A program made the position numbers and the translations under genes. This document shows positions 26,734-35,953 of a DNA stretch of 64,000 nt, in pieces; the first letter of the stretch is position 1; each line of letters begins with the position of its first letter. The stretch lies in NCBI RefSeq assembly GCF_017811155.1, contig NZ_JACVCV010000018.1, forward strand, positions 1 through 64,000, written 5' to 3'. The notes beneath the pieces were generated by a model, which saw only the letters and a list, made by a program, of their open reading frames with translations, did no database searches and had not been told where the DNA came from. The stretch is from Lunatimonas salinarum (GTDB lineage: Bacteria > Bacteroidota > Bacteroidia > Cytophagales > Cyclobacteriaceae).

Positions 26734-29334
26734 ATGGCTAAAGCAGCAGTAAAAGAGACGCCGCTCATGAAGCAGTACAACGCCATCAAGGCCAAGCACC
26801 CCGGCGCCTTGCTGCTGTTTCGGGTGGGAGATTTTTACGAAACCTTCGGAGAGGATGCGGTAAAGGCCAGTAAAATATTGGACATCGTACTGACCAAGCG
26901 GGCAAACGGAGCCGCCTCCCATATTGAGTTGGCAGGCTTTCCCCACCATTCCCTGGACACCTACCTGCCCAAACTGATCCGCGCGGGCAACCGCGTAGCC
27001 ATCTGCGATCAATTGGAGGATCCCAAGGAAGTAAAAGGCATTGTGAAGCGGGGCGTGACCGAGCTGGTGACTCCGGGACTTTCCTTTAACGACAACGTGC
27101 TGGACAAGCGGCGAAACAATTTTCTCGCTTCGATCTATTTTGATCGCGAGGCCTTGGGCGTAGCCTTTCTGGATCTTTCCACCGGAGAATTTATGGCCGC
27201 ACAGGGTCAACCTGCGTATATCGAGAAGTTGCTACAAAGCTTCAGTCCCTCGGAGGTGATCTATTCCAAGGCGGCAAAAGCCCGGGCTGCTGAGTTTCTG
27301 AAAAGCGACTTTACCACTTTCCACTGCGAGGATTGGGTATTTCAATACGATTATGCCTACGAACGCCTTACCCAGCATTTTCAGACCAACTCTCTAAAAG
27401 GCTTTGGGATCGAAAACCTGCCCCAGGGGATCGTGGCAGCTGGTGCGGTGCTCTTTTATTTGGAGGAGACCGAACACAAGGAGGTCAAGCACATTGCCTC
27501 CATATCCCGCATAGCGGAGGAAAAATACGTGTGGCTGGATAAGTTCACCATCCGCAACCTGGAGCTAATCCACCCGCAGCAGGAGGGTGGCGTGCCGCTG
27601 ATACAAATCTTGGATCACACGCATACTCCCATGGGCAGCCGCATGATGAAAAAATGGATGGTGCTTCCTCTAAAGGAAAAAGAGCCTATTGTAGAGCGAC
27701 AGCGAATGGTAGCGCACTTCTTCGAAAATCCCGCTTTCCGTGAGGAGGTTGCCTCTCACCTTAAGCACATCGGCGACCTGGAACGGCTAATCTCCAAGGT
27801 AGCCGTGGGGCGCATCAACCCACGGGAGATGAACCAGCTTAAAAAAGCCCTAAAAAGTACCCTCCCCATCAAGGCACTGCTTAGCGCAGCGAGCAACAGC
27901 TCTCTAAAGAAGTTGGCGGATCAGTTGAACTCCTGCGAATTTTTGCTTGAAAAGATTGATCGGGAGCTGATGGAGGATGCGCCCATGCTGACCCATCAGG
28001 GCGGCATCATCAAAAATGGTGTGGATGCCGATTTGGACGAATACCGAAAGCTGGCCAATTCCGGCAAAGATTACCTGATACAGCTACAGCAGCGGGAGGT
28101 GCAAAAGACAGGAATCAGTTCCCTCAAGGTAGCCTATAACAAGGTCTTCGGCTACTACCTGGAAGTGAGCAATACGCACAAGGACAAAGTTCCCCAAGAA
28201 TGGATCCGCAAGCAAACGCTTGTAAATGCGGAGCGCTACATCACCGAGGAGCTCAAAATATATGAGGAAAAGATCCTTCATGCGGAAGAACGGCTGATTG
28301 CTTTGGAGCAAAAATACTTTAACCTGCTTGTGCAGGATGCCACCGATTACGTGTCGAGCATTCAACAAAACGCCCGGATATTGGCCACCTTGGATGTGTT
28401 GCTATCCTTTGCGCAGGTGGCGTCGGAAAACAATTATTGCATGCCCAAGATGGCAGATACCGAATCCATTGAGATCAAGGATGGGCGGCATCCGGTAATT
28501 GAAAAACAATTGCCGATTGGCGACGCCTACGTGCCCAACGACATCTTTCTGGACAATGCCACGCAGCAGATTATCATTATCACAGGCCCCAATATGGCCG
28601 GGAAATCGGCCCTGCTCCGGCAAACGGCCCTGATCGTGCTGATGGCACAGATGGGCAGTTTTGTCCCGGCCTCTTATGCCCGTTTGGGCATCATTGACAA
28701 GGTATTCACCCGGGTGGGTGCTTCAGACAATCTCTCCAAGGGTGAGTCCACTTTCATGGTGGAGATGACCGAGACAGCCAGCATTCTCAACAACCTAAGT
28801 GACCGCAGCCTGGTACTTATGGACGAGATCGGTCGGGGTACCTCTACCTACGACGGGATATCCATCGCTTGGTCCATCGTGGAGTACCTGCACAACCAAC
28901 CCAAGTGCCGAGCCAAAACGTTGTTTGCCACCCATTACCATGAGTTGAATCAGCTGGCGGAGGATTTTCCCAAGGTGAAAAACTTCAATGTATCCGTGAA
29001 AGAACTGGGCAACAAGGTGATCTTTATGCGGAAACTGGAAAAGGGAGGGAGTGAGCACAGCTTTGGGATTCATGTGGCCCAGATGGCAGGCATGCCCAAT
29101 CCGGTCGTGCTTCGTGCCGCCGAGATCATGAAGCACCTGGAGAAGGACAAGGACCTCAAAGGGCAGCGCGACAGGATCAAGGATATGCCTAAAAACAACT
29201 ATCAGCTGAGCTTGTTTGAGATGGATCCCAAATTTAAGGCGGCGCAGGAGATGCTCGATGCCATCGACATCAACACTATTTCGCCCGTAGAAGCGCTGCT
29301 TAAGCTAAACGAAATCAAAAAAACCCTGGCCTAG
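26734..29334 (+). CDS. mutS: DNA mismatch repair protein MutS
   Basis: An 866-residue MutS1. The N-terminal mismatch-recognition loop has the conserved Phe-x-Glu in FRVGDFYETFGEDA. Then come the connector, lever and clamp domains (KVFGYYLEVSN, WIRKQTLVNAERY), and the C-terminal ABC ATPase with Walker A TGPNMAGKSALLRQ, Walker B VLMDEIGRGTSTYDG and LFATHYHEL. The length is normal. It binds mismatches and recruits MutL after replication. The tRNA genes follow 150 bp downstream. The long antisense frame over its 5' end (26464-27210) is a shadow. Confidence 0.98.
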   Translation: MAKAAVKETPLMKQYNAIKAKHPGALLLFRVGDFYETFGEDAVKASKILDIVLTKRANGAASHIELAGFPHHSLDTYLPKLIRAGNRVAICDQLEDPKEVKGIVKRGVTELVTPGLSFNDNVLDKRRNNFLASIYFDREALGVAFLDLSTGEFMAAQGQPAYIEKLLQSFSPSEVIYSKAAKARAAEFLKSDFTTFHCEDWVFQYDYAYERLTQHFQTNSLKGFGIENLPQGIVAAGAVLFYLEETEHKEVKHIASISRIAEEKYVWLDKFTIRNLELIHPQQEGGVPLIQILDHTHTPMGSRMMKKWMVLPLKEKEPIVERQRMVAHFFENPAFREEVASHLKHIGDLERLISKVAVGRINPREMNQLKKALKSTLPIKALLSAASNSSLKKLADQLNSCEFLLEKIDRELMEDAPMLTHQGGIIKNGVDADLDEYRKLANSGKDYLIQLQQREVQKTGISSLKVAYNKVFGYYLEVSNTHKDKVPQEWIRKQTLVNAERYITEELKIYEEKILHAEERLIALEQKYFNLLVQDATDYVSSIQQNARILATLDVLLSFAQVASENNYCMPKMADTESIEIKDGRHPVIEKQLPIGDAYVPNDIFLDNATQQIIIITGPNMAGKSALLRQTALIVLMAQMGSFVPASYARLGIIDKVFTRVGASDNLSKGESTFMVEMTETASILNNLSDRSLVLMDEIGRGTSTYDGISIAWSIVEYLHNQPKCRAKTLFATHYHELNQLAEDFPKVKNFNVSVKELGNKVIFMRKLEKGGSEHSFGIHVAQMAGMPNPVVLRAAEIMKHLEKDKDLKGQRDRIKDMPKNNYQLSLFEMDPKFKAAQEMLDAIDINTISPVEALLKLNEIKKTLA

Positions 29335-29487
29335 CTGTATTTTTCCACCTAAAAATCAAAGGGGTAGTGAACACCATGCTTGCCGATTACAAATATTTGA
29401 CTGGAAATATTGCCTTTTATAAAAAAGCAGGTAAATTTGCAATCACATTAGGCCGCTGCAAACGGGTACGGCTGAAACGTATTAAAA

Positions 29488-29560
<73 letters not shown>

Positions 29561-29566
29561 CTGCTA

Positions 29567-29586
29567 AAGCCCTCTACCAAGGGCTT
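29567..29586 (+). terminator. Hairpin after tRNA-Gly
   Basis: A 7-bp stem AAGCCCT / AGGGCTT with a six-base loop, seven bases after the tRNA. It is followed by TATTCTTTA, a weak T-run. Probably a terminator or processing signal. Confidence 0.6.
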
Positions 29587-29650
29587 TATTCTTTATGGGC
29601 CTGTTAGATTATTGAACAGCCTATTGAAAGAAAACCAGTCAATATAATAT

Positions 29651-29734
29651 GCCGGGATGGTGGAATTGGTAGACACGCAAGACTTAAAATCTTGTGACCA
29701 TTAGGTCGTGCGGGTTCAAGTCCCGCTCCTGGTA
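29651..29734 (+). tRNA. tRNA-Leu (anticodon UAA)
   Basis: An 84-nt class II tRNA with a long variable arm (TGACCATTAGGTCG). The acceptor GCCGGGA pairs with TCCTGGT, the anticodon stem-loop is CAAGA-CTTAAAA-TCTTG with TAA at 29685-29687, and the T arm is GGTTCAAGTCC. CCA is not encoded. The defence genes start 255 bp downstream, and tRNA-Leu genes are frequent integration sites, though no att repeat was found. Confidence 0.97.
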
Positions 29735-29739
29735 CATGC

Positions 29740-29768
29740 AAGCTTCCTCGAAAAGGGAAGCTTTTTTT
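29740..29768 (+). terminator. Rho-independent terminator after tRNA-Leu
   Basis: An 8-bp stem AAGCTTCC / GGAAGCTT (29740-29747 with 29756-29763) running into seven T. Confidence 0.88.
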
Positions 29769-29989
29769 ATGTCTTGGGCTAAAAACATTCTTTTGCCTAT
29801 ATTGTAGCTTCGCTAAGCCTTTGAAGTATTCAGGTGATCCCTATCCATGAATGGTTTCCAAAGCCTTTTGCTTTACAGGTGGGTAGCACCGAGGGCTTTT
29901 GTTCCATGCTTCGTTAGCTGCCCCCCAAGCAACTGGGACTTTTCCACTAACCAAATCAACCGAAGAACAAGACGTTACAAAATAGCACA

Positions 29990-31795
29990 ATGAAGAACTT
30001 TAAGGAAAAAGCCGACCTGATCTGGAAAGTCGCCGACCTGCTGAGAGGAGACTACAAGCAGTCAGACTATGGAAAGGTGATCCTCCCCATGACCGTCCTG
30101 AGACGATTGGACTGTATTCTGAAGCCCACAAAGCAAAAAGTCCTCGACTACCTTCCCAAGGTGGAATCCCTGAAAGAGGGCGTCATCGACATTGCGCTTA
30201 ACAAGATCGCCGGACATAATTTTCACAACCGGAGCGCCTTTGACTTCGATAGGATTGTGGCCGATCCGAATAATGTCGCGGCCAACCTTCGAAACTACAT
30301 CCATGGCTTTTCTACCAGCGCTCGGGAAATCATCGAGTATTTCAACTTTGATGATCATATCGACCGGATGGATGACCCAAAGGCCGATATCCTTTTTCGG
30401 GTGGTCAAGTCCTTTCAGGAGATTGACCTTTCGGATATGGATTCCATGGAAATGGGCTACACCTTTGAGGAACTCATCCGAAAGTTTGCAGAACAGTCCA
30501 ACGAAACGGCAGGGGAGCACTTTACCCCACGGGAAATTATCCGTCTGATGGTGAACCTCTTGTTTATCGAGGACATGGAGATGCTGACCATCGAAGGCAT
30601 TGTCAAAACGCTCTATGATCCAACCGCCGGAACAGGCGGAATGCTCTCCGGAGGGGAACAATATGTAAAAGAGCTCAATCCAAAAGCGGAACTCAAGGTT
30701 TTTGGACAGGAGATCAACCCGGAATCCTATGCCATCTGCAAGGCCGATATGTTGATCAAAGGGCAAAATCCCAGCAACATCAAATTTGGCAATACGCTTT
30801 CCAACGATCAGCTGACAGAAGAACAATTTGACTATCAAATTTCCAACCCTCCCTTTGGGGTGGACTGGAAGAAGGTAGAGAAACTCATCAAGGCAGAAGC
30901 CAACAAAAAGGGCATGGATGGCCGATTCGGTGCCGGTTTGCCTAGAATCAACGACGGTTCCTTGCTGTTTTTGCAGCACATGATCTCCAAGATGAAACCC
31001 AATGGCTCCCGAATTGCCATTGTTTTCAATGGATCCCCCCTATTCTCAGGAGCTGCAGAAAGTGGTGAGAGCAATATCCGAAAATGGATCATCGAAAATG
31101 ACTGGCTGGAAGCCATTGTCGCCTTACCGGATCAACTTTTTTACAATACAGGGATCAGCACTTACATCTGGATTGTCACCAATCACAAAAGCACGGAGCG
31201 AAAGGGGAAAGTACAGCTAATCAATGCCACGGGAACAGGCGCAGATTCGTTGCATGAAACGACTCTGCAAAAGGGGAACCGTTTCTGGCAGAAAATGGAC
31301 CGGAGCTTGGGCAATAAGCGTAAAAAAATCATTGAAAACGGATCTGAAAAAGGAATAGGCTTTATCACCAACCTCTATGGCAATTTTGAAGAAAATCAAT
31401 TCGTCAAGATCCTTCCGAATGCCTTTTTTGGGTACTGGCGGATCACCGTGGAGCAACCACTCAGAGATGAAAAAGGCAAAGTCGTCAAAGCCAAGGGCAA
31501 ACCAAAACCCGACGCTTCTTTACGTGACTATGAAAACATACCTTTTCTTGTAAAGACGCAGGATCCTGCGTCTCCTTTCCGCAAACAAACCATCGAAGAA
31601 TATTTCGATGCAGAAGTTAAACCCCACCTGCCTGATGCATGGATAGACCACAGCAAGACCAAAATTGGCTACGAGATTAATTTTACGAAGTATTTCTATG
31701 AGTTTAAACCACTTCGATCTTTAAAGGATATTAAGGCTGATATTTTAGCTTTGGAAGAAAAGACGTTGGAAATGGAAAAATACATTTTGGAATAA
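29990..31795 (+). CDS. hsdM: Type I restriction-modification N6-adenine methyltransferase subunit
   Basis: A 601-residue HsdM. The N-terminal helical HsdM domain (residues about 1-145) is followed by the amino-methyltransferase fold: GEHFTPREI at 175-183, SAM motif I DPTAGTGG at 210-217, and catalytic motif IV NPPFG at 286-290. The protein is intact and ends normally (FKPLRSLKDIKADILALEEK). HsdM methylates adenine only in complex with an HsdS specificity subunit, and restriction needs HsdR. Here hsdS is truncated (34233) and hsdR is not in the window, so HsdM may be an orphan. The next gene starts 13 bp downstream and clearly belongs to the same transcript. Confidence 0.95.
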   Translation: MKNFKEKADLIWKVADLLRGDYKQSDYGKVILPMTVLRRLDCILKPTKQKVLDYLPKVESLKEGVIDIALNKIAGHNFHNRSAFDFDRIVADPNNVAANLRNYIHGFSTSAREIIEYFNFDDHIDRMDDPKADILFRVVKSFQEIDLSDMDSMEMGYTFEELIRKFAEQSNETAGEHFTPREIIRLMVNLLFIEDMEMLTIEGIVKTLYDPTAGTGGMLSGGEQYVKELNPKAELKVFGQEINPESYAICKADMLIKGQNPSNIKFGNTLSNDQLTEEQFDYQISNPPFGVDWKKVEKLIKAEANKKGMDGRFGAGLPRINDGSLLFLQHMISKMKPNGSRIAIVFNGSPLFSGAAESGESNIRKWIIENDWLEAIVALPDQLFYNTGISTYIWIVTNHKSTERKGKVQLINATGTGADSLHETTLQKGNRFWQKMDRSLGNKRKKIIENGSEKGIGFITNLYGNFEENQFVKILPNAFFGYWRITVEQPLRDEKGKVVKAKGKPKPDASLRDYENIPFLVKTQDPASPFRKQTIEEYFDAEVKPHLPDAWIDHSKTKIGYEINFTKYFYEFKPLRSLKDIKADILALEEKTLEMEKYILE

Positions 31796-31808
31796 GTTAT
31801 ATTGCAAT

Positions 31809-33110
31809 ATGAGAATTAATAGATTGGAGCTGAATAATTTTCGGAACTTTGAATATGCAACTTTTGAGTTTCCTACAAACTTCACCGTAATTATAGGAGA
31901 AAATGGGAAAGGCAAATCTTCCATTCTTCAAGGATTACGGCTTGCAGCTGGGACATTCCTTTTAGGAATTGACGAGGCCGATCGATATCATATTCTAAAG
32001 GAAGATATACGTAGAATTGATTTACACAATCGATTTGTACCGCAAAAAAACTGTTTTTTTTCAGCTTTTGGTTTGATTGGGGATCAAGAGATTCATTGGA
32101 AACGATCTATTGCAAAACCAGGAGGACGCACAGATATTAAGGAAGCTTATGCGCTTATTGATAGGGCAAAGGAACTCAATGATGCTGTCAATGAACATAT
32201 GCGAGAAGATATTGATCTTCCTGTAATTGGATTTTTCAGTACCGCCAGGTTATGGGTTGAACCCAAACAAACCATTAACCTAAAAAAGAAAGGCTCTAGG
32301 TTAAGAGATGGATATTCAAGATGTCTAGGGGATCATTCGGACAAAAAATCCCCCATGGAGTGGATCAAATCTGCCTCTTGGAAAAAGCTAAAAGAAAGGC
32401 CGGAAAGTGTCCTTTTAGATGCTGTTTTGGAAGCCATAGATATTTGTGTGCAAAACTGGAAACCAACTGAGTGGGATGAAGATTCAGATGATTTGGGGGG
32501 GCAATTTACAAATGATAGAGATGAAAAAAACTTCTTACCATTATTCTATTTAAGTGATGGGTTGCGAACAATGGCTGCAATGGTAGCAGAAATTGCCTAT
32601 AGATGTGTTATCCTGAATGCTCATTTGGGCAGGGAAGCTGTGAAGTTGAGCAAGGGAATTGTATTGATTGATGAGCTTGATATGCACATTCATCCAAAAT
32701 GGCAACAACACGTGGTCAGTGATTTAAAACAAGCTTTTCCAAATATACAATTTATTGCCACTACACACTCCCCATTTATTGTTCAGTCCTTAAAAGCTGA
32801 AGAGTTGATTAATCTGGATACAAGTATCAATGACGATCCTTATAAAATGAGTATTCAAGATGTATCATCTCGCATCATGAAAGTGGAGCCGAGAAGCTTG
32901 GAATATAAACAGAAATTTGACCTCACATTAGAATACCTTAACCTTCTTTCTCACATTAAAGATAACAAGAAGGAAATGTCAATGGAATTCAAATATCAGC
33001 TTGATGAAATGGAAAAATCAGCCGAAATCAATGACCCTGCTGTAGCTGCTTTCTTAAAAATGAATAGATTGGCTGTAATTGGAAAAACGGATATTGAAAA
33101 TACGAAATAA
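31809..33110 (+). CDS. AAA/ABC-type ATPase of a Septu-like defence pair (PtuA-like)
   Basis: A 433-residue SMC/RecF-like ATPase of the AAA_21 type. Walker A is GENGKGKS at residues 30-37 after MRINRLELNNFRNF; the signature-like LSDGLR is at 248-253, Walker B IVLIDELDMHIHP at about 285-297, and the switch histidine in ATTHSPF at about 317-323. It lacks a TOPRIM domain, so it is not an OLD nuclease. The HNH nuclease gene begins 16 bp downstream; an ATPase plus HNH protein is the layout of the phage-defence system Septu (PtuA/PtuB). AAA ATPase genes between hsd genes are also known as restriction-linked ORFs. The gene is AT-richer than hsdM, hinting at a different origin. The Septu assignment is by architecture only. 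Confidence 0.8.
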   Translation: MRINRLELNNFRNFEYATFEFPTNFTVIIGENGKGKSSILQGLRLAAGTFLLGIDEADRYHILKEDIRRIDLHNRFVPQKNCFFSAFGLIGDQEIHWKRSIAKPGGRTDIKEAYALIDRAKELNDAVNEHMREDIDLPVIGFFSTARLWVEPKQTINLKKKGSRLRDGYSRCLGDHSDKKSPMEWIKSASWKKLKERPESVLLDAVLEAIDICVQNWKPTEWDEDSDDLGGQFTNDRDEKNFLPLFYLSDGLRTMAAMVAEIAYRCVILNAHLGREAVKLSKGIVLIDELDMHIHPKWQQHVVSDLKQAFPNIQFIATTHSPFIVQSLKAEELINLDTSINDDPYKMSIQDVSSRIMKVEPRSLEYKQKFDLTLEYLNLLSHIKDNKKEMSMEFKYQLDEMEKSAEINDPAVAAFLKMNRLAVIGKTDIENTK

Positions 33111-33126
33111 AGACAATAAATAGCCT

Positions 33127-33825
33127 ATGCGTCCAATAGAAAGAGGTGCTAGACCATTGAATCCTGATAGAACTCCAAAAACCTATACCTCTTATGGGAA
33201 TTCTCGCAGGGATTTGATTGACCGAATGGGTCAGTATTGTGCTTATTGCAATCAAAAATTACCCGCGTCTTTGGCAGTGGAACATGTTCAGCCAAAAGCA
33301 TTGGAGCCACATTTAGAACTAGAATGGGAAAATTTTGTGCTAGCCTGTACAAACTGCAATTCTACCAAAGGAAAAAAGCCGGTTAAATTGGCGGAATATT
33401 TGTGGCCAGATGTGCATAACACCCATTTAGCATTTATTTATACCGCAGACGGAAAAGTAAAAGTGAATCCTAATTTACCTGGAAACATCAAGCTTAAAGC
33501 TCAAAATCTGTTAGACTTGGTTGGCTTGCAAAAGTATCCTGACAACCCAACCTCCAGCGATAGAAGGTGGGTTAACCGAAGAGATACATTTGTTAAGGCA
33601 AATGCTGCTATGCTTTTATACAATCAAGCGATAGAAAATGGAGCTGGTGACGAATTTGAAAAACTATTAGGCTATTGGTCTGCGGACAACGGTTTTTTTT
33701 CGATTTGGATGCAGATATTTGACAAAAATACTGCGATTAAAAAGGAAATTATAAAGGCATTTACAGGAACAGCTAACTGTTTTGATGCTGACTTTAATCC
33801 CATTCTACGTAACCAGGAATTATGA
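33127..33825 (+). CDS. HNH endonuclease of a Septu-like defence pair (PtuB-like)
   Basis: A 232-residue HNH nuclease. The zinc-stabilised beta-beta-alpha-metal site can be read in full: C38xxC41 in YCAYCNQ, catalytic E52-H53 in AVEHVQPKA, N69 in EWENFVLA, and C74xxC77-N78 in ACTNCNSTKG. This is the phrase pattern seen in PtuB and related HNH proteins that work with an AAA ATPase. The remaining 140 residues are helical and end in INPILRNQEL-like sequence without a known domain. All active-site residues are present, so the nuclease is probably functional. Its TGA stop overlaps an ATG (TTATGAG at 33820-33826) that opens a short 41-codon frame. Confidence 0.82.
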   Translation: MRPIERGARPLNPDRTPKTYTSYGNSRRDLIDRMGQYCAYCNQKLPASLAVEHVQPKALEPHLELEWENFVLACTNCNSTKGKKPVKLAEYLWPDVHNTHLAFIYTADGKVKVNPNLPGNIKLKAQNLLDLVGLQKYPDNPTSSDRRWVNRRDTFVKANAAMLLYNQAIENGAGDEFEKLLGYWSADNGFFSIWMQIFDKNTAIKKEIIKAFTGTANCFDADFNPILRNQEL

Positions 33826-34236
33826 GCATCTACCATCAATACAACGATGCTGAATTCGAAGGGCATGGAGAAATTTTTAAAGTTTGTGCAAGCCCAATTT
33901 TTCGCTGTAACCCTATTCAGAACTCCGGATACTGGGGGAACATCTAAGATTACTGGGGAAGTTACTGGGGAACTTGCCCCGCAGGAAACCCTGCAAGATA
34001 TAACAACTATAAAAAAGGTGGTTTTCGTATTGGAAGGAGAAATGAAAAGACAACAACTACAAGATGCTTTACAGATAAAACACAATGATTATTTCAGAGT
34101 GGAATACATCTCCCCGGCTTTGGAACACAAGTACATTGAACTAAAATATCCCAATAGTATTAACCATCCCAAGCAAAAATACCGACATACCGCCAAGGGG
34201 CAGGCACTGAAAGCACAACTCAACCAAGAACTATGA
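33822..34236 (+). pseudogene. Winged-helix C-terminal remnant (RecG-like/AlbA_2 or Fic-type protein)
   Basis: An intact frame from ATG 33847 to 34236 (129 codons) carries, from about residue 20, FFAVTLFRTP, a GEVTGEL linker and a winged-helix domain (KRQQLQDALQIKHNDYFRVE, then KQKYRHTAKGQAL). This is the usual last domain of large AlbA_2/RecG-like ATP-binding proteins, and is seen in some Fic proteins; the whole N-terminal catalytic part is missing. In a different frame, an ATG overlapping the HNH stop (33822) encodes NDAEFEGHGEIFKV, which fits the sequence normally just before FFAVTLF. A frameshift plus an upstream deletion therefore explain the locus. Its stop overlaps the hsdS start (ATGA), which preserves the old operon order hsdM - accessory gene - hsdS. 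Confidence 0.55.
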
Positions 34237-34634
34237 AAACCTACGATTCCTACAAAGATTCCGGCATTGAATGGATCGGGGAGATTCCTAGTCATTGGGA
34301 AAAGGCAAGATTGGCAAATGCAGGGAAATTTTATAAAGGAAAAGGCGTTTCAAAAACTGATCTGACTTTACAGGGGCTACCAGTAATTTTGTATGGAGAC
34401 CTTTACACGAAATACAATATCAAAGCATCAAAAATAGAAAGACGAATACCAAAGGAAGTAGCGGAAAAATCCTTTTTACTTGAAAAAAATGACTTGCTTT
34501 TTGCTGCTTCCGGTGAGACTCCTGAAGAGATAGGCAAGTGTATTTGCTTTTTTGGTGAAGAAGAGGCCTATGCCGGAGGTGATTTGGCCAAAGAGATAAT
34601 GATGAAGAAGATTTATAAGCGGTTGAATGAATAG
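34233..34634 (+). pseudogene. hsdS: Truncated type I specificity subunit (hsdS fragment)
   Basis: A 133-codon frame whose N-terminus is classic HsdS: SYKDSGIEWIGEIPSHWE, then the first half of a target-recognition domain up to AYAGGDLAKEI. Complete HsdS has about 400-450 residues with two recognition domains and two conserved coiled coils. Here everything after about residue 120 is lost and the last residues (MMKKIYKRLNE) are not family sequence. A protein this short could not direct HsdM to a two-part site. The break falls against an antisense Fic fragment, pointing to a deletion or rearrangement at about 34600-34665. Half-size HsdS proteins can dimerise in some systems, but they still need a full recognition domain. 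Confidence 0.85.
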
Positions 34635-34996
34635 GTTCGAGGATTTGGGGAGACATACTTTAAAAGGCGTTGTTTGCTTTCATCGGATCGAGCTAACTGC
34701 AAATCCGTCATAGATCGTGCTGAGATACGTCCATTTCCATCATCTAATGAGTGTACCGTTACAAACCACAAATGAGCAATAGCCGCTTGCAAAACAGGAT
34801 CAACATCAATTTTAGCGTTGAACCAATCGAAAAGGGTTTCCATTTCCTGAGCAACTATTTCTGATTGAGGAGCTTCAAAATGAACTCGTTTCTATCCCAC
34901 GGCACCAGAAACGATTTGCATAGCACCTGTCTCTCTCCATGACCCCACAGAAATTTTATGCATGCCCTCAGGTGAATTGGAAGAGTTTCCCTCCGT
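34613..34996 (-). pseudogene. Fic family protein, degenerate internal fragment
   Basis: On the minus strand one frame reads as the middle of a Fic protein of the DUF4172 kind: GMHKISVGSWRETGAMQIVS, GAVG, an in-frame TAG at 34892-34894, then KRVHFEAPQSE, EMETLFDWFNAKID, AAIAHLWFVTV and the catalytic loop HSLDDGNGRISAR. The canonical loop is HPFxDGNGR followed by xxR; here Pro-Phe is Ser-Leu and one residue is inserted before the arginine. The C-terminal part is replaced by unrelated sequence overlapping the hsdS fragment, and the N-terminus ends at a stop near 34997, close to the atp terminator. Fic enzymes AMPylate proteins; this one is dead. Confidence 0.75.
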
Positions 34997-35012
34997 TTAG
35001 AAAGTCCCCAAC

Positions 35013-35048
35013 AAAAAACCCCACCGGAAGTTAAGCATTCCAGTGGGG
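35013..35048 (-). terminator. Rho-independent terminator of the atp operon
   Basis: An 11-bp stem CCCCACYGGAA / TTCCRGTGGGG (35019-35029 with 35038-35048, one G-T pair, eight-base loop). On the minus strand it runs into six T (35013-35018). It lies 30 bp after the atpG stop. Confidence 0.9.
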
Positions 35049-35077
35049 TGGTTGTAGGTGTTTTATACGGAACGAAA

Positions 35078-35953
35078 TTAATCGCTGCTTTCCAGCGCCT
35101 CTGCACCGGCCACGATCTCCAGGATCTCGTTGGTGATGGCTGCCTGACGAGTACGGTTGTAGACCAGTTTCAATTGCTTGAGCAGGTCGTTGGCGTTTTC
35201 GGTCGCCTTATCCATCGCCGTCATCCGTGCCCCGTGCTCCGAAGCATTGCTGTCGAGAATGGCTTTGTAAAATTGAATTTTCAGCGAGTTGGGAACCAGT
35301 TCCTCGATGATATATTCCCTAGAAGGCTCCACGATGTAGTCCTGCTGATTTGCACCTGTTTCCACCAAATCGTTTTGCTCGATGGGCAAAAACTGCTCAG
35401 CCTTGACCACTTGGGTTGCCACGTTTTTAAACTCGTTATACACGATAATTACTTTGTCAAAGCTGCCGGATTCAAAGGCATTCATTGCATGCTCCGCGGC
35501 CACCTTTACCCGGTCAAAAGAGACGTCTGCAAAAAGCAATGCATAATCGTCTATAAGTGGATAATCACGTTTCTTAAAGTAGTCGAACGCCTTTTTTCCG
35601 ATAGGCATCACCGTAATCTGCTTACCTGCGTAAGTCGTTTCCAACTCGAGGGAGGTCGCTTTGATGACGTTGGAATTGAACGCGCCGCAAAGACCTTTAT
35701 CGGAAGTGATGGGTACAAACAGAACCTTCTCTACCTGTCGCTGCTGTGCATATACGATATCCGTGCTGCCCTCAGATCCTGAGGAAATATTGTTGAGTAT
35801 AGCGGTCAGCTTTTGGGAATAGGGCCTCATTTGGACAATTTTATCCTGTGCCCTCCGCAATTTCGCCGCAGCGACCATCTTCATAGCTTTGGTAATCTGC
35901 TGCGTGGAGCTGACCGAATTGATTCTTTCTTTTACTTCCTTAAGGTTCGCCAT
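35078..35953 (-). CDS. atpG: ATP synthase F1 gamma subunit
   Basis: A 291-residue gamma subunit, the central rotor shaft of F1. The N-terminal coiled coil is MANLKEVKERINSVSSTQQI followed by TKAMKMVAAAKLRRAQ, and the conserved C-terminal helix is LKLVYNRTRQAAITNEILEI. The phrase LCGAFNSNV marks the globular Rossmann-like part. It is the last gene of the atp operon, 44 bp after atpA and followed by a strong terminator. No atpD or atpC comes after it, unlike the order in many other bacteria. Confidence 0.97.
   Translation of the reverse strand: MANLKEVKERINSVSSTQQITKAMKMVAAAKLRRAQDKIVQMRPYSQKLTAILNNISSGSEGSTDIVYAQQRQVEKVLFVPITSDKGLCGAFNSNVIKATSLELETTYAGKQITVMPIGKKAFDYFKKRDYPLIDDYALLFADVSFDRVKVAAEHAMNAFESGSFDKVIIVYNEFKNVATQVVKAEQFLPIEQNDLVETGANQQDYIVEPSREYIIEELVPNSLKIQFYKAILDSNASEHGARMTAMDKATENANDLLKQLKLVYNRTRQAAITNEILEIVAGAEALESSD

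Follow-up and report, generated by a model that had tools for sequence, protein, structure and literature searches.

Septu is an anti-phage system in which an ABC-type ATPase (PtuA) is encoded ahead of an HNH nuclease (PtuB), and PADLOC has divided it into canonical and retron types (PMC8565338). The EcB88 Septu, which depends on both of its active sites, cuts the variable loop of tRNA-Tyr (PMC13096335), PtuAB of retron Eco7 depletes tRNA-Tyr, and nicked DNA has been reported for another Septu (mechanism sources PMC13096335 and PMC11555353). Here we analyse a PtuA–PtuB pair on a stretch of 64,000 nucleotides from Lunatimonas salinarum (contig NZ_JACVCV010000018.1, positions 1 to 64,000; hereafter the window), which lies between hsdM and a remnant of hsdS in a broken type I restriction-modification (R-M) operon. 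On the strength of sequence comparison and one predicted structure, the pair is probably a Septu anti-phage module carried as cargo at the hsdM-hsdS junction of a type I operon that has lost its restriction function.

Type I operons that harbour other defences are already on record, with PrrC and DarTG2 as examples. PrrC resides within type Ic operons, whose restriction enzyme keeps it silent (PMC2610378, PMC3506569, PMC12707154). As in the window, an ABC-ATPase-linked nuclease there lies inside an hsd operon (EcoprrI), but the nuclease domain of PrrC is part of PrrC itself, and its linkage to type Ic systems is described as invariable (PMC2610378), whereas PtuAB is mostly unlinked. DarTG2, in the RptR island of E. 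coli, is likewise a distinct defence module housed within a type I operon (PMC12255303); it differs in being a toxin-antitoxin pair between hsdS and hsdR, a site of that operon termed a potential hotspot in the same article, whereas the window holds an ATPase–nuclease pair between hsdM and hsdS. The article also mentions Septu in Hma systems and cites a preprint of 2024 that deals with defences lodged inside immune systems. Our limited literature search, which judged most papers by title and had bioRxiv preprints and most subscription papers outside its range, turned up none devoted to Septu in type I or type III operons.

Identity of the PtuA–PtuB pair

The upstream gene of the pair, ptuA (31809–33110, forward strand), encodes an intact ATPase of 433 amino acids (aa), and 16 bp directly downstream of it on the same strand ptuB (33127–33825) encodes an intact HNH nuclease of 232 aa. 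PtuA matches PADLOC profile PDLC00278 with an expect value (E) of 7e-127, its residues 1–422 aligning to profile positions 1–431 of 436, and PtuB matches PDLC00315 at 2e-74 over nearly its whole length. These scores rule out chance open reading frames (ORFs) for both genes. Fourteen PtuA sequences share invariant residues in what we take to be the Walker A motif (G30, N32, G35 and K36), the SDG signature (S249, D250 and G251), the Walker B motif (D288 and E289) and the switch histidine of the H-loop (H320), in agreement with the Walker motifs and switch histidine of the initial annotation. The HNH core of PtuB (C38, C41, E52, H53, N69, C74, C77 and N78) is invariant in 13 sequences; across a broader sample of 32, E52 falls just short of invariance.

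Comparison with solved structures points the same way. The best solved relative of PtuA is the PtuA of E. coli Septu 8ee4 (1.5e-44, residues 1–341), ahead of the retron PtuAs, and the top eight chains found in the PDB with a profile built from 13 PtuBs are PtuB or TIGR02646. A single-chain predicted model of PtuB (predicted local distance difference test score 96.4) gave nine Foldseek matches at E <= 0.001, all of them to chains from retron I-A complexes or from the E. coli Septu structure 8eea, with query-normalised template modelling scores of 0.52–0.65 and identities of 16–20%. The Septu-like assignment made at the outset, together with the structure comparison then suggested and run here for PtuB, is borne out, all PtuA and PtuB sequence and fold features examined being present. 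Thus, by profile, by motifs and, for PtuB, by predicted fold, the pair is PtuA–PtuB, a Septu without a retron.

By comparison with E. coli Septu (8ee4/8eea, EcB88), the window pair has the same order of ATPase and HNH genes, the same PtuA profile with a clear sequence match, and a PtuB fold matching 8eea. It differs in sitting between hsdM and an hsdS remnant and in the length of its PtuA, 433 aa against 465 in 8ee4. The effectors of retron Ec78 (Eco7) are also a homologous ATPase and HNH nuclease, and the PtuB fold matches their structures 9u9y, 9nnb and 9vh1; however, the window PtuA is about 110–120 residues shorter. Furthermore, none of the seven ORFs scanned around the pair (29990–35106) belongs to a reverse transcriptase family, and Rfam at gathering scores over the window returned two tRNAs only, with no retron RNA. 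Identity as a retron effector was therefore rejected.

Disruption of the surrounding operon

The pair is preceded, at a distance of 13 bp, by hsdM (29990–31795, forward strand), which PADLOC and the ORF identify as an intact type I DNA methyltransferase subunit of 601 aa, full length (PADLOC type I methyltransferase, E 9e-255) and with the motifs DPTAGTG and NPPF present. The whole hsdM-ptuA-ptuB stretch of 3.8 kb is free of stops and frameshifts. Downstream, on the forward strand, lies an hsdS'-'hsdR remnant (34233–34634), in which HsdS residues 1 to about 116 are fused in frame to the last 18 or so residues of HsdR. Measured against a working type I R-M system, with intact hsdM, hsdS and hsdR, the locus falls short: hsdM is intact, and one fused remnant is all that is left of hsdS and hsdR. 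The earlier placement of the two genes, co-directional, 13–16 bp apart and between hsdM and an hsdS remnant, agrees with the ORF coordinates; the remnant itself comes from hsdS, as proposed, and combines the HsdS N-terminus with an HsdR C-terminal tail.

The closest HsdM in our order sample (88% aa identity) belongs to a genome of the same family, G785, whose hsdM-hsdS-hsdR operon is free of cargo. Homology to G785 extends through hsdM as far as window position 31780 and picks up again at 34228, where hsdS starts; between those points G785 has 8 bases and the window about 2.4 kb. At its other end, the hsdS piece runs into 53 bp that are 96% identical to the 3′ end of G785 hsdR, and the last 18 residues of the remnant match the C-termini of HsdRs from other loci (83% for L221 and L222, 72% for L088). 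The simplest reading of these alignments is that one deletion, from inside hsdS to near the end of hsdR, created the fusion, and we infer that the restriction activity of this locus has been lost.

Two neighbouring genes are also broken. A further gene (33822–34236, forward strand) has a start codon that overlaps the ptuB stop (ATGA), followed by a Fic-like_C piece (33847–34236) in another frame; on the reverse strand, a Fic-domain gene fragment (34613–34843) is truncated, and a stop interrupts its upstream frame. The picture of an intact pair amid downstream decay stands for the pair and is refined by the broken Fic-like_C gene between ptuB and hsdS. Instead of gradual decay of everything downstream, we now see one hsdS-hsdR deletion together with two broken genes, one of them cargo and the other a Fic gene.

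On its other side the operon adjoins a tRNA-Leu (taa) gene (29651–29735, forward strand; ARAGORN and Rfam), the last conserved gene on the mutS side, so that the initial annotation of a broken type I R-M operon beside tRNA-Leu stands. The operon leader (29736–29989, forward strand) follows, with hsdM beginning 254 bp after the tRNA. By blastn, window positions 29101–29991 align at 84.8% to locus L066 of the genus-mate G001, and homology goes no further than the hsdM start codon; beyond this leader G001 has a glycosyl hydrolase 43 gene where the window has hsdM (L066:5630). The contig carrying the locus gave no HSDR_N or Methylase_S match, nor were type I genes found on it outside this locus, and further type I genes are present elsewhere in the Lunatimonas genome. 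This PtuB subfamily has one strong match in the genome, the window copy, and one weak partial match elsewhere (1e-9).

Nested PtuAB in other genomes

The order hsdM-ptuA-ptuB-hsdS (slot 1), which the initial annotation had proposed looking for in other genomes, is found beyond the window at four loci (L099, L105, L116 and L117). L116 and L117 are near copies (HsdM 99%), and L117 is judged from its gene order to be the same locus as that of genome G249, to which L069 also belongs. A second arrangement, hsdS-ptuA-ptuB-hsdR (slot 2), occurs at five loci (L074, L076, L239, L245 and L362), where start and stop codons overlap or lie a few bases apart. In Flavobacterium fontis the pair lies within a type III operon, in the order mod-ptuA-ptuB-res (L114, 8143–14465).

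Three samples put this arrangement in proportion. In the phylum survey, PtuB of this subfamily (E <= 1e-20) was found in 21 of 395 genomes and in none of 14 controls. The 29 PtuB matches listed amount to 27 loci when the pieces of two split genes are counted together, and hsd operons enclose four of these (the window, G249, G356 and G287). In the order survey, PtuA (E <= 1e-50) was found at 41 places in 28 of 390 genomes, and in 1 of 14 controls; four places are nested (the window, G249, G803 and G683), the other 37 having no hsd gene among the nearest ORFs. For a named collection we examined the best 80 of at least 560 PtuA relatives. With at least 2.5 kb of sequence upstream and 3.2 kb downstream, 4 of 52 lie in type I operons (L099, L105, L116 and L117), and L114 is likewise flanked. 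From the plasmid and phage collections came one plasmid record, distantly related, and two phage-like contigs that carry no annotation. The hsd genes were recognised by profiles seeded from nested Bacteroidota operons, so other type I kinds may be missed; type III genes were sought through similarity to L114 alone; and many loci end on short contigs, where nesting may be missed. Nesting is a recurrent but minority state of PtuAB.

The nearest relatives of the window PtuA in these samples lie outside hsd operons as far as their flanks are visible: L097 (68%), L098 (59%, with only 1 kb upstream visible) and L071 (57%). In a PtuA tree of 98 rows, made by a quick method, the window copy groups with copies away from hsd genes (Chryseobacterium, an uncultured Cytophagales and G015) and with L099 of slot 1. 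The slot-1 label needs four changes on this tree and all nested labels together seven; in a 44-row HsdM tree, PtuAB cargo needs five. The PtuA tree drops L069 and L078 as duplicates of L117 and L115 and omits ORFs below 380 or of at least 520 aa, the HsdM tree omits L069, L125 and HsdMs below 450 aa, and L362 and L364 are in neither. The simplest reading of the trees is repeated insertion at the same junctions, with losses also a possible source of the scattered nesting.

Four HsdMs and four PtuAs of slot 2 formed clades that matched, and this at first pointed to a co-inherited hsdM-hsdS-ptuA-ptuB-hsdR unit. That idea was weakened on three counts: the PtuBs concerned are of two PADLOC subfamilies, the HsdM and PtuA groupings disagree, and HsdMs 71–72% identical to that of L076 adjoin other genes.

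Type I operons carry much other cargo. A search of the order that started from HsdM (E <= 1e-100) found it in 38 of 390 genomes. Thirty-seven loci besides the window were read, and 34 had hsdM, hsdS and hsdR; cargo of at least 100 aa lay between hsdM and hsdS in 9 of the 34, between hsdS and hsdR in 14, and in either position in 20. PtuAB was the cargo in three of these complete operons (L069 of G249, L239 and L245), while other annotated cargo comprised PD-(D/E)XK_4 nucleases, Abi_2, DUF4268, RhuM and GmrSD, some cargo being without a family. Searching with hsdM among 323 genomes of the class to which G287 belongs turned up 18 places, in 17 genomes, with no PtuAB seen at the 17 new places, several of which are on short contigs. 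For the class that includes G803, the corresponding search of 375 genomes yielded 15 places, in 15 genomes. Four of the 14 new ones were read: L362 has hsdM-hsdS-ptuA-ptuB-hsdR, L364 has hsdM-ptuA-ptuB followed by a helicase gene, and L363 and L365 are without PtuAB. Cargo annotated in these two classes includes Fic, Schlafen/AlbA_2, DUF1016 and an M78/DUF4411 pair.

Several individual loci merit description. In genomes G891 and G910 (L345:6305–7992 and L346:4976–6663), whose HsdMs are the ones 71–72% identical to that of L076, an M78/DUF4411 pair stands where L076 has ptuAB; the pair is annotated in L345, and L346 has ORFs of the same lengths. In G1189 (L364:595–9138), the gene after ptuB encodes a 1502-aa DpdF-like DEAD helicase in place of hsdS. 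In Flavobacterium sp. WM.006 (L125:1423–11970, short downstream flank), ptuAB comes right after genes for an N6 methyltransferase, a mad5/specificity-like protein and a 1705-aa DndH/mad8-like protein. ORFs of 1685–1705 aa also lie upstream of ptuA in L307, L313 and L316 (directly in two of them), and these large neighbours proved unrelated to that of L125. A 103-aa protein resembling a helix-turn-helix protein, possibly a regulator of the whole unit, is encoded just before hsdM in the nested operon of G249 (L069:7499–7810). L099 (12933–13952) and L105 (13959–14984) each have a gene between hsdS and hsdR; the two, of 339 and 341 aa, resemble each other at the start, and the L099 copy is without a Pfam match. 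The operon of G032 has a 1096-aa HsdR (L088:15300–18590, forward strand) with a GIY-YIG domain (1e-14, residues 499–567) between the helicase and D3-like domains, and additionally carries an RloA/RloB (AbiL-like) pair.

Competing explanations for the pair

By analogy with other Septu systems, PtuA and PtuB of the window would assemble into one complex, infection would trigger nucleic-acid cutting that requires both the ATPase and the HNH site, and the cutting would stop phage production at a cost to the cell. If still working, the locus would be transcribed from the hsdM leader and act as a Septu on its own. In the intact operons of other genomes, nested PtuAB would most simply be an autonomous second line of defence that travels with the restriction system.

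Some observations weigh against this account. Searched against the PDB as a single sequence, the window PtuB places a Cas9 chain (1.8e-4) marginally ahead of PtuB (2.7e-4). In NCBIfam, PtuB reaches 50.8 bits, just under the TIGR02646 cut-off of 52.15, and 55 of the 150 bits of the retron PtuB cut-off, and PtuA reaches 187 of the 500 bits of the retron PtuA cut-off; taken with the lack of any retron part in the seven ORFs scanned around the pair and in the Rfam results, these low scores against the retron Ec78 equivalogs make the pair a Septu in its non-retron form. The remaining member of the small PtuA clade of the window, L099 (49%), is itself nested. Since the characterised Septu systems are only distant relatives, the target may be tRNA or DNA. 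Anti-phage activity is a prediction from sequence, and expression of the pair and selection on it after the deletion are possibilities.

It is possible, though we think it doubtful, that PtuAB of intact operons is a PrrC-like guard, silenced by or balanced with Hsd and released by a phage anti-restriction protein; the window pair would then be an orphaned guard. By the same proposal, and held with the same reserve, nested PtuAB would be a third form of Septu, besides the stand-alone and retron forms, in which the restriction enzyme replaces the retron as sensor or antitoxin. The loci of slot 1, slot 2 and the type III operon share the placement and co-directional packing of known guards, and four slot-2 HsdMs form one clade in the 44-row tree. 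PrrC, moreover, is an ABC-ATPase tRNase silenced by the restriction enzyme in type Ic operons (PMC2610378, PMC3506569), and tRNA-Tyr is cleaved by the Septu of an E. coli strain (PMC13096335), so both would be ATPase–tRNase devices. However, most PtuAB are not nested (only 4 of 41 places and 4 of 27 loci are), and the slot-1 PtuAs need four changes on the tree, with stand-alone copies in between. Slot-2 loci with related HsdMs carry different PtuAB subfamilies, and in G891 and G910 close relatives of the L076 HsdM adjoin other genes in that slot. The lengths of nested PtuA and PtuB are ordinary and suggest no large added domain. Finally, the window pair persists without intact HsdS or HsdR, which would be hard to tolerate if the whole Hsd complex had restrained it. 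If PtuAB were nevertheless a guard, anti-restriction proteins would set loose a tRNA (or DNA) nuclease driven by the ATPase, which would be a PrrC-like guard of independent origin, and the window would be a natural case of a guard outliving its ward.

It is unlikely that the entire locus, ptuAB included, is a decaying passenger on its way to being lost and without present function. Three broken genes lie within about 1 kb, and the locus was not found at the corresponding place in the two genus-mates examined. The initial annotation had named loss in close relatives as a finding that would tell against it; the absence from that place in these two genus-mates bears on this condition, and the recurrence of the gene order elsewhere answers the rest of it. 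Rates of change of HsdM favour decay in some comparisons. In a 13-row tree its end branch is twice that of G785 (0.10 against 0.043), and Tajima relative-rate counts, window against G785, are 34:11 with G794 as outgroup and 28:19 with G032; a further count of 65:13 (window against G032, outgroup G794) was discarded because G794 is too near G032. Against decay, the HsdM end branches are equal in the 44-row tree (0.055 and 0.059), Tajima counts with nine more distant outgroups are even, and hsdM differs from that of G785 with 0.08 nonsynonymous against 1.3–2.0 synonymous substitutions per site. Since relative-rate tests and trees conflict, we make no claim of accelerated HsdM evolution. For the pair itself, the counts against a stand-alone Chryseobacterium copy are even (PtuA 35:32 and 27:25; PtuB 18:19 and 15:12), and the 3.8 kb of hsdM-ptuA-ptuB are uninterrupted with the catalytic residues kept. 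These even rates are compatible with constraint, acting either before or after the deletion.

The initial annotation had gone further and read the intactness of the pair as a sign that selection maintains it as the working defence. That step goes beyond the data: one deletion largely accounts for the decay, and hsdM, which it spared, is an equally open reading frame. PtuAB may be intact because it lay outside the deletion, as hsdM did. Selection on PtuAB is compatible with the data, which do not demonstrate it.

Finally, it is highly improbable that PtuAB, paired with HsdM, serves in place of HsdR to do the cutting in a methylation-based system, as the survival of just these genes and the position of PtuAB beside other methylation systems (type III in L114; the methyltransferase, specificity-like and DndH/mad8-like genes of L125) might suggest, because a type I methyltransferase depends on HsdS for its choice of target and only the first 116 or so HsdS residues are left, and because intact relatives have HsdR alongside PtuAB.

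For the Septu cargo reading, which we prefer, the decay in the window comes down mainly to one deletion and broken neighbours, and is by itself no evidence for selection on the pair. The comparison with the empty slot of G785 shows where the cargo sits. Septu is hereby documented as a recurrent cargo of type I, and once of type III, operons in Bacteroidota, at two positions beside hsdS. Functional coupling of nested PtuAB with the restriction enzyme is possible, and the intact nested operons form a concrete set in which to ask whether the restriction enzyme controls PtuAB as a retron does.

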